Translations under genes and position numbers: made by a program
Notes under the pieces: model-generated
Seen by the model: the letters and a program-made list of their open reading frames with translations, nothing else
Database searches by the model: none
What the model was told of the DNA's origin: nothing
From: a candidate division KSB1 bacterium
GTDB lineage: Bacteria; Zhuqueibacterota; Zhuqueibacteria; Zhuqueibacterales; Zhuqueibacteraceae
DNA length: 64,000 nucleotides
Assembly (NCBI GenBank): GCA_034506175.1
Contig: JAPDQB010000009.1
Span: 62,001 to 126,000 of the forward strand
Direction of reading: 5' to 3'
In this document: in pieces, positions 52,311-55,176 of the stretch
How the letters are laid out: each line of letters starts with the position of its first letter
Numbering within the stretch: position 1 is the first letter of the stretch

Positions 52311-53138
52311 ATGATGATGCTGATTCTCCTTGAGCAGTGGGCGTTAGTCATGGCGTACATTCTGGCGCTGGTTTATTACGTCCGTGCGTTTCGCAGCGGC
52401 CGCGTGCCGGAAAGCATTCGCGCCGGACGATTGCTGACCCTCGCCGTCGGCCTGCACTTTTTTTATTTGATCCATCTGACGATTTTTGTTGGGCATTTGC
52501 CGGTCACCGATGTGTTCGAGGCGATCACCACCTGCGTCTGGCTGTTCGGCACGGTGTATCTGAGTCTCGAATGGCGCTTGAAAGAATACTCGCTCGGTTC
52601 GTTCATCCTGCCGGTGATCATTGCCTTGCAAATCGTCTCCAACCTGTTTCTCGATTTCAACCGCGTGCTGCCCGCCATCTTGCAAGACGCTGTCTTTGAA
52701 GTCCACGTCCTGATGATTTTGCTGTCTTACTCGGCGTTCGCCATCTCATTCATTGCCAGCCTGCTTTACTTGCTGCTGTCGCGCGATCTCGAAAGAAAAA
52801 ATCTCGGCCTCTTTTACCGCCGCCTCCCCTCGCTCGCCTTTTTTGACTCGCTGAGCAATTTCGCGGTCAATATCGGTTTGATCTTTCTCACGGCCGGCGT
52901 TGGCTTGGGAATTTATGTCGGCGCCGAAATTCCCGAGCCGTTCTTCAACACGTTGGATCCAAAATTTGTTGCCGTCGGCTTGACCTGGCTCATTTATGTG
53001 TTTCATCTGTTTTCCCGGCGCGCCGGTGGTTGGCAGGGCAAAAAAGTCGCGATGATATCCCTGTTCGGTTTTGGCTGGGTGTTGTTCTCGTTTTTGGTTG
53101 TTTCTTTGGTTTTCTCAAAGGTGCATCAGTTTCAATAA
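52311..53138 (+). CDS. HemX/CcsA-like cytochrome c assembly family membrane protein
   Basis: 275 residues with about eight membrane helices (LEQWALVMAYILALVYYVRA; LLTLAVGLHFFYLIHL; VFEVHVLMILLSYSAFAISF). HFFYLIHL and FEVHVLMILLSYSAF hold conserved His residues of the CcsA/CcmC/HemX superfamily, which bind haem or support haem-pathway enzymes. In many bacteria a HemX-type gene lies directly before hemA; here the next gene, eight bases on, has a HemA-like N-terminus, which supports the HemX reading. Upstream is a pseudogene region. Confidence 0.75.
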   Translation: MMMLILLEQWALVMAYILALVYYVRAFRSGRVPESIRAGRLLTLAVGLHFFYLIHLTIFVGHLPVTDVFEAITTCVWLFGTVYLSLEWRLKEYSLGSFILPVIIALQIVSNLFLDFNRVLPAILQDAVFEVHVLMILLSYSAFAISFIASLLYLLLSRDLERKNLGLFYRRLPSLAFFDSLSNFAVNIGLIFLTAGVGLGIYVGAEIPEPFFNTLDPKFVAVGLTWLIYVFHLFSRRAGGWQGKKVAMISLFGFGWVLFSFLVVSLVFSKVHQFQ

Positions 53139-53145
53139 ACCGGCA

Positions 53146-55176
53146 ATGTCTATTTTTTACTGTTACACTTCCCGCGACGCCCTGGCGGCGGAAAAAGCCG
53201 CGCCCCATTGCGGCCAGGCGCCATCGTCATTTTTACAAAGTTGGGAAGATGATTTGCGTCGCCTGGCCGGCGACGCCTCGCCCCTTCCGGCGAACGAATC
53301 AGCATGGTTGGATTTGGCGCGACACCTCAAAGCGATGCCGGAATATAACATTGAAGAGTGTTTATTGATTTTCGGCCCGCGTTTCATTGAGCTTTATCTC
53401 GTTGCCGGCGCGCCGGCATCAAACGCCAGGAACGGCCGGCTGGCAACATTCGCCGATCTTGCCAAATCTTTTTCATTTTTCGTCACCGTCTCGAATCAAG
53501 AAGCAGTGATGCAATTTTTCCGGTCGGCGCTGGGATGGATGCCGAACGGCGAGCATGATCCGGCGCATGTCGAAGCATTTCGGCGCGCTTATACCCTGGC
53601 TTCGGAACACAAGCTTGCCGGCCTCGTACTGAGCCGCCTTTTTCAGCGCGCGTTGTGGCTGTATGAAAAAGCCCGCCTCGAAACCGACTTGTTTCACCAT
53701 CCGAACACGGTTGACGAAGTTTTGCTCGAGGTCGCTGGAAAAATTTTCGGCGGACTGAAAGAACGCGCGGTTTTGTTCGTTGGCAGCAACGGCGAGCTAC
53801 CGCCCCTCGTCAAAATTTTACAACAGGCCGGCATCGGGCATTTATATTTTGCTTTAACCGGCTCGGAAAAACCCGATGCTGCCGGTTCCGGGCAGATCAT
53901 AGACTCTTGGCACGAGGTGTCGCAATTGCCGGCTTTTGATCTGATGCTTTTATTCAATCAAGCGGGCCGCAATATCATCACGCGCGCTTATTTGCAAAAA
54001 TTGATGGCCGCCCGCCAGCATAGCCCGCTGCTGCTGGCCGATCTCACCGCCGAAGAGTCGCCCGCTGAGATGATAAAAATGTACAATCTATTTTATTATC
54101 GCCGGCGTGATTTGGAAGGCCTGGTCGAGCAAAATGCGACGGTGCGCCGGCAAGCTGAAGCCGAAGTTACCGGGTGGATACGCGACGAAGTTCGAGAGTT
54201 TTATCACTGGCTCAATTCGGCGGATCGTTTTCATTTCGGCTCGATGGTCGGCCGCAGCCCGCAGATGCAGCAGGTGTTCGAGTTGATCGCGCGCATCGCG
54301 CAAACCGACATCACCGTGATCATCGAGGGCGAGAGCGGCACCGGCAAGGAATTGGTGGCGCGCGCCATTCACCAAGCCAGCACCCGCGCCCGCCGGCCGT
54401 TCATCGCCGTCAATTGCGGCGCGCTGCCGGAAAATCTTTTGGAAAGCGAATTGTTCGGCCACGTGCGCGGCGCTTTCACCGGCGCGGTGAGCAACAACCC
54501 GGGTTTATTCGAGCAGGCCAACGGCGGCACGATTTTTCTCGACGAGATCGGCGAAATGTCGCCGGCGCTGCAGGTGAAACTTCTGCGTTTTTTGCAAGAC
54601 GGTGAAATCAAACGCGTCGGCAGCAACACGGTGCTCAAGCTCAACGTGCGCGTGCTGGCCGCCACCAATCGCCATCTGGAAACGCTGGTGCACGAGGGAA
54701 AATTTCGCAGCGACCTTTATTACCGTCTCAACGTGATCAGCATCAAATTGCCGCCGCTGCGCGAACGCCCGGAAGACATCGAAATGCTCGCCGAACATTT
54801 TGCCAGAAAATTCGCCGGCCGGATGCGCAAAACGATCAACGCGCTTCCACCGGAGGTTTTGCAGCGCCTGCGCCAATATGCCTGGCCCGGCAACGTGCGC
54901 GAGCTTGAAAACGTGATGGAGCGTGCTGTCGCCCTCACGGGCAATGCCACGCTCGAGGTGGTCGATTTGCCCGCGCCTTTACGCGAAGCCGCCGGCACAA
55001 CCGCCAGGACGACGCGCCCGCCTCTAAAAGAAATCGAGCGACAGTACATTCTCGACACCGTCGCGGCCTGCAATGGCAATTACGAAGAGGCCGCCAAAGT
55101 CCTCGGCATCGGCCGCACGACGCTGTGGCGCAAGCTCAAAACTTATCTGGATCCGCAGGGCGATTTCGAGGCGTGA
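53146..55176 (+). CDS. sigma-54-dependent activator with degenerate glutamyl-tRNA-reductase-like N-terminus
   Basis: 676 residues. The N-terminal half follows glutamyl-tRNA reductase: LLIFGPRFIELYLVA (72-86) lines up with the LSTCNRTELY active-site block but lacks the Cys; NQEAVMQFFRSALGW, LSRLFQRALWLYEKARLETD and AGKIFGGLKERAVLFVGSNG fit the dimer/NADP-binding parts. From about 365 it is a standard AAA+ activator: GESGTGKE (Walker A), GAFTGA loop, GGTIFLDEIGEM (Walker B), and a Fis helix-turn-helix at the end (NYEEAAKVLGIGRTTLWRKL). It should open sigma-54 promoters in response to something sensed by the HemA-like part, possibly a haem-pathway signal (inference). Start ATG 53146 has no clear ribosome-binding site, so it may be coupled to the HemX-like gene. 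Confidence 0.8.
   Translation: MSIFYCYTSRDALAAEKAAPHCGQAPSSFLQSWEDDLRRLAGDASPLPANESAWLDLARHLKAMPEYNIEECLLIFGPRFIELYLVAGAPASNARNGRLATFADLAKSFSFFVTVSNQEAVMQFFRSALGWMPNGEHDPAHVEAFRRAYTLASEHKLAGLVLSRLFQRALWLYEKARLETDLFHHPNTVDEVLLEVAGKIFGGLKERAVLFVGSNGELPPLVKILQQAGIGHLYFALTGSEKPDAAGSGQIIDSWHEVSQLPAFDLMLLFNQAGRNIITRAYLQKLMAARQHSPLLLADLTAEESPAEMIKMYNLFYYRRRDLEGLVEQNATVRRQAEAEVTGWIRDEVREFYHWLNSADRFHFGSMVGRSPQMQQVFELIARIAQTDITVIIEGESGTGKELVARAIHQASTRARRPFIAVNCGALPENLLESELFGHVRGAFTGAVSNNPGLFEQANGGTIFLDEIGEMSPALQVKLLRFLQDGEIKRVGSNTVLKLNVRVLAATNRHLETLVHEGKFRSDLYYRLNVISIKLPPLRERPEDIEMLAEHFARKFAGRMRKTINALPPEVLQRLRQYAWPGNVRELENVMERAVALTGNATLEVVDLPAPLREAAGTTARTTRPPLKEIERQYILDTVAACNGNYEEAAKVLGIGRTTLWRKLKTYLDPQGDFEA

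Follow-up and report, generated by a model that had tools for sequence, protein, structure and literature searches.

Sigma-54 enhancer-binding proteins of the NtrC/NifA/NorR class combine an AAA+ domain, which carries a Walker A motif and a GAFTGA loop that contacts sigma-54, with a C-terminal Fis-type helix-turn-helix (HTH), and are governed by a receiver, GAF, PAS, V4R or similar sensor domain. Metabolic enzyme folds can also serve as the sensors of transcription factors, as in the enzyme-derived MocR/GabR regulators, where an aminotransferase fold is fused to a DNA-binding domain. Glutamyl-tRNA reductase (GluTR; HemA or GtrR) is the committing enzyme of haem synthesis. In Staphylococcus aureus its abundance is restrained by HemX, a protein of eight predicted membrane helices (PMC5801465). 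The hemX gene adjoins gtrR in 94% of the genomes that have hemX, and in the same survey HemX was never found without gtrR or haem synthesis (PMC5801465). The mechanism of this restraint is said to be unresolved (PMC5801465, PMC10991733).

Here we analyse a 64,000-nucleotide stretch of DNA (the window) that encodes, beside a HemX-like membrane protein, a regulator in which a pseudo-GluTR domain occupies the sensor position of a sigma-54 activator. Our main reading, to which we assign a probability of about 0.7, is that this activator is governed by its HemX-like partner, binds the palindrome CTTTTCAWWWTGAAAAG and raises haem supply.

The features of the locus are collected in Table 1. The reading frame of the regulator is open upstream of its ATG to position 53071, and the HemX-like gene ends 7 nt before that ATG. 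Both the AAA+ and the Fis-type domain that a preliminary description of the sequence had placed after the sensor were confirmed by profile (PF00158, PF02954), and sigma-54 is encoded in the same genome, G000, which holds the window (PF04552 E=1.4e-62). The complete AAA+ domain with its Walker A and GAFTGA motifs, the C-terminal Fis HTH and the genomic sigma-54 are those of the enhancer-binding proteins; what sets the regulator apart from them is that its sensor is a pseudo-GluTR domain rather than a receiver, GAF, PAS, V4R or similar module. The output half belongs to a known kind of regulator, and the sensor and regulon appear new.

Table 1. Coordinates of the HemX-like gene, the regulator gene and its parts in the window
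Feature	Coordinates	Strand	Basis
HemX/CcsA-like membrane protein, 275 aa, constant partner of the regulator	52311..53138	+	PF01578 E=7e-24
Regulator: pseudo-GluTR, sigma-54 AAA+ and Fis HTH	53146..55176	+	676 aa; ORF (ATG at 53146, stop codon ends at 55176) and domain profiles
Sensor region, residues 1-359: GluTR-like catalytic and NADPH-type domains and linker helix	53146..54222	+	TIGR01035, fold match 1gpj
G77-P78-R79-F80 at the TCNR active-site block	53374..53385	+	alignment with 14 true hemA
GSNGE (213-217) at the GAGEM glycine motif of the NADPH domain	53782..53796	+	alignment
Sigma-54 interaction AAA+ domain and lid, residues 367-621	54244..55008	+	PF00158 E=9e-74, PF25601 E=1e-26
Walker A GESGTGKE, residues 395-402	54328..54351	+	from translation
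GAFTGA loop, residues 442-447	54469..54486	+	from translation
Fis-type helix-turn-helix, residues 627-667	55024..55146	+	PF02954 E=4e-13

The sensor descends from GluTR. Residues 60-359 match the NCBIfam glutamyl-tRNA reductase (hemA) profile TIGR01035 with E=1.3e-22, co-linearly over 300 residues, at a score of 80 bits that lies under the equivalog cut-off of 209.6 bits; the score reaches 120 bits in a relative. A phmmer search of the PDB with the regulator returned a single protein, GluTR 1gpj (E=1.4e-5). The N-terminal region was also modelled with AlphaFold2 from 28 relatives (pLDDT 85, pTM 0.81), and the best PDB fold match of the model is likewise 1gpj (E=3.3e-15, TM 0.65), followed by plant GluTRs and then, from E=1e-4, by generic dehydrogenases. 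The resemblance to GluTR had been proposed in the preliminary description, together with a profile search and a structure prediction as checks, and both bear it out; the region of homology, placed there at about residues 70-260, does not end at that point and continues through the linker helix to residue 359. Chance or generic Rossmann similarity could be read from the weak match of Pfam GlutR_N alone (E=0.002) and from the sub-cut-off TIGR01035 score, but its probability is negligible: it is refuted by the long co-linear match, stronger still in the relative, and by a fold match to GluTR that greatly exceeds those to other Rossmann proteins (3e-15 vs 1e-4). In an unrooted tree of the regulators and true hemA proteins, the two sets fall on opposite sides of one branch with 100/100 support, and this split fits a single origin of the fusion between the pseudo-GluTR domain and the activator.

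The regulator shares with the GluTR enzyme (HemA/GtrR, TIGR01035, PDB 1gpj) its fold, its linker helix and the order of blocks in the catalytic and NADPH-type domains, but differs in what catalysis depends on and in its C-terminal half. We aligned 29 regulators with 14 true hemA proteins from their phylum. All 14 enzymes have T, C and R in the TCNR block and the second Gly in the NADPH motif (GxG); none of the 29 regulators has the catalytic Cys or Arg, and 1/29 keeps the second Gly, as against 14/14 in hemA. The loss of the catalytic Cys noted in the preliminary description therefore stands, with the replacing residues shifted by one: the aligned block is GPRF, not FGPR. The AAA+ and HTH domains replace the C-terminal dimerisation domain of the enzyme, the AAA+ domain starting, in the alignment with hemA, where the dimerisation domain would begin; a search of G000 for that domain (PF00745, GlutR_dimer) found none. 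Judged from these alignments, the GluTR domain of the regulator is catalytically dead.

Some positions conserved in hemA are nevertheless kept in the regulator, Glu82 and Arg177 among them, and with the GluTR fold also kept a residual ligand site is possible. On that basis the pseudo-GluTR domain might read a precursor directly (glutamyl-tRNA, glutamate or a later tetrapyrrole), leaving the HemX-like protein as a mere tether or with a separate task. We consider this unlikely, since neither the TCNR block nor the NADPH glycines survive, the regulator always comes with a HemX-like gene, and the pair persists in genomes without hemA, hemB, hemC and hemH, where such intermediates would not exist. 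Direct sensing of NADPH is disfavoured by the loss of the glycine motif.

The preliminary description called the upstream gene HemX/CcsA-like, and its family assignment and position agree: a HemX-like/CcsA-like gene lies directly upstream of the regulator, on the same strand, in 30/30 pairs examined. The model of the HemX-like protein consists of eight long helices, and its best fold match is CcsBA (7s9y). Like HemX of Bacillus subtilis and S. aureus (PMC5801465), it is a PF01578 protein with eight predicted membrane helices encoded beside a GluTR-type gene. It differs in three respects. Its neighbour is a pseudo-GluTR transcription factor rather than the enzyme encoded by gtrR; control would be exerted on transcription rather than on protein abundance; and the pair persists without haem synthesis (G000 lacks hemA, hemB, hemC and hemH), which HemX reportedly never does.

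Two histidines of the partner, H132 and H272, are shared by all 27 partners compared, and in an alignment with CcsA chains retrieved by profile search they coincide with His residues. In CcsBA, two periplasmic His flank the WWD haem site (PMC6299221); the assignment of H132 and H272 to particular haem-ligand histidines is our own and should be read as tentative. Of the WWD motif of CcsA, CcmC and CcmF, most Trp positions are degenerate in the partner, and the DPK residues are kept in most. Because most of the WWD tryptophans are lost, a haem-lyase role of the partner is unlikely. This bears on the proposal that the pair serves cytochrome c maturation, with the CcsA-like protein as haem lyase and the regulator matching cytochrome genes to haem supply. 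The PF01578 assignment, the CcsBA-like fold and the further CcmF- and CcmC-like genes of G000 would accord with it. We regard it as very improbable, because the tryptophans have gone, separate CcmF/CcmC-like proteins exist in the order, and the candidate operator sites described below lie before hemA and TonB operons and not before cytochrome genes. The segment 51683-52213 (+), just upstream of the HemX-like gene, encodes part of a glucose/zinc dehydrogenase C-terminal domain (positions 44-181 of the 211 in PF16912); lacking an in-frame N-terminal half, it is probably a decayed gene.

A profile of the sensor domain detected the regulator in 30/82 genomes of Calditrichota, and in a 31st genome (G038) a copy is cut by the contig end directly before met8-hemA. 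When the GTDB collection was scanned with one conserved peptide, all the relatives detected were in KSB1/Calditrichota-type records; the pattern recovers only about half of the known members, so that absence elsewhere is weak evidence. True hemA occurs in 23/82 genomes, and the regulator is found in 20/23 genomes with hemA vs 10/59 without (Fisher p=5e-9). The survey of pairs suggested in the preliminary description, including whether a true hemA is kept, gave an unbroken pairing and a true hemA in 20 of the 30 regulator genomes. In several of the genomes (G007, G009, G010, G011, G037, G046, G052) the pair lies inside or near a haem gene cluster. Searches of G000, whose estimated completeness is 100%, for GlutR_dimer, full hemA, hemB, hemC and ferrochelatase found none, and no hemA, hemB, hemC or ferrochelatase was found in the nearly complete G003, G004 and G076; all four genomes keep the HemX-regulator pair. 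G000 still has CcmF- and CcmC-like genes, and therefore presumably needs haem from outside.

Several further observations were made in the neighbourhood of these genes. The met8 gene precedes hemA in G009, G010, G038, G046, G052, G068 and G072, and inspection by eye of the region beside the pair in G011 (L158 7644-9706) revealed a radical SAM gene and two genes resembling Lrp-type sirohaem decarboxylases. Haem synthesis in some members may follow the sirohaem route. G011 also has a second, more diverged hemA-like gene with a TAG inside the match (L079 8340-9572). In G080 and G081 (L070 647-2923, L076 10895-13126), apparent genes of a two-part FeoB-type ferrous iron transporter, likewise recognised by eye, lie divergently beside the pair.

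Across the phylum, sigma-54-type promoters (TGGCAC/T-N5-TTG) lie upstream of hem operons, with the palindrome CTTTTCAWWWTGAAAAG further upstream. This array, with the two elements 75-224 nt apart, was found at 19/23 hem operons vs 1/374 control genes (p=1e-27). The count allowed at most one mismatch in the palindrome and a spacing window of 60-260 nt, and used refined gene starts and controls from the same loci; the p value is optimistic, as the palindrome was first read from the same regions as were counted, and the count includes the close relatives G001/G002 and G080/G081. The sole control gene with the array encodes a TonB receptor and adjoins the pair in G007. The candidate sites stand at enhancer distance, as do those of sigma-54 enhancer-binding proteins. 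G036, which has hemA and in which no regulator was found, shows neither palindrome nor promoter. The regulator-bearing G014 and G068 have no palindrome within one mismatch at hemA, and in G072 (82% complete) the promoter is present and no regulator was found. The element TGGTATAAT in G037, G080 and G081 was considered as an extended -10 and rejected, because other families show TGGCAC/T there without a -10 box.

The palindrome also precedes the HemX-regulator operon itself in G030, G032, G033, G034 and G037, which suggests autoregulation in these genomes. Scanned for promoters, the regions before the HemX-regulator operons showed no sigma-54 signal (1 match vs 1.25 expected). It is conceivable that another sigma-54 activator binds the palindrome and drives the hem operons, the regulator controlling something else. 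Further sigma-54 activators are present in these genomes (REG_AAA matches in L025, L068 and L072, for example), and the HemX-regulator operon of the window has no palindrome before it. Such an arrangement is nonetheless quite unlikely, given the sites before the HemX-regulator operon in the five genomes just named and before the TonB operons that adjoin the regulator in G007, G080 and G081, and given that regulator and sites are missing together from G036.

The genome of the window contains exactly one perfect copy of the palindrome, and 29 with one mismatch. The perfect copy is followed 166 nt later by TGGCATgttgtTTG, which gives the array seen at hem operons, and then by an operon that encodes a lipoprotein, a TonB receptor, a 7-TM protein and a porin. 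Orthologues of the lipoprotein, TonB receptor and 7-TM genes, with the same palindrome and promoter, adjoin the regulator in G080 and G081, and porin orthologues are neighbours of hemA in G032-G035 and of the pair in G037. The best NCBIfam match of the TonB receptor is a haem/haemoglobin receptor family, at E=8e-53 and below the cut-off. These links were found after the motif had been defined, and they provide the strongest independent support. Inspection of the exact palindromes in the haem-less G003, G004 and G076 gave no convincing promoter or target gene. The 7-TM protein and the porin are conserved, unnamed proteins (L176 6213-8531, from C19 of G000, and L107 11529-12254); one copy of the former has a weak HisKA_7TM match, and the latter, whose orthologues adjoin hemA or the regulator in five genomes, has no Pfam or NCBIfam match.

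We propose that the pseudo-GluTR activator and its HemX-like partner work as follows. The most likely binding site of the Fis domain is CTTTTCAWWWTGAAAAG, 75-224 nt upstream of the sigma-54 promoter, which the AAA+ domain would open. In haem-making species the activated target would be the hemA or met8-hemA operon; in G000, where haem synthesis is lost, it would be the lipoprotein/TonB receptor/7-TM/porin operon. By analogy with the restraint of GluTR by HemX in Bacillus and Staphylococcus, the HemX-like protein most likely reports haem status to the pseudo-GluTR domain; the activator would presumably be restrained under ample haem and released under shortage. Among the three signals named in the preliminary description, NADPH ranks lowest in likelihood, since 28/29 members lack the glycine motif; haem status conveyed through the HemX-like partner ranks highest, and charged tRNA is possible. 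Its central suggestion, a haem-pathway enzyme turned into a sensor beside a HemX-like gene, draws support from the descent of the domain, the lost catalytic residues, the constant pairing, and a candidate operator and sigma-54 promoter before haem-synthesis or putative haem-uptake operons. A more specific version, somewhat short of even odds in our estimate, is that an old HemX-GluTR contact was captured as a transcription switch, in which a haem-binding HemX holds the activator at the membrane and frees it when haem is short, for haem synthesis or, after loss of the pathway, for import.

The design appears to be undescribed, in line with the preliminary description. Searches of the open-licence literature found no paper joining HemX, glutamyl-tRNA reductase and sigma-54, nor one joining glutamyl-tRNA reductase, sigma54 and transcriptional activator, which is not proof of absence. 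MocR/GabR regulators are similar in using a metabolic enzyme fold as the sensor of a transcription factor, but the enzyme, output domain and pathway are different.

In this regulator, the sensor of an activator descends from the committing enzyme of the pathway that it apparently controls. A HemX-like protein coupled to a transcriptional GluTR would make the restraint of GluTR by HemX a simple reporter-assay question, and the operator predicts haem regulons across a largely uncultured phylum. It also suggests that several members have moved from making haem to scavenging it, apparently with the old control circuit kept.
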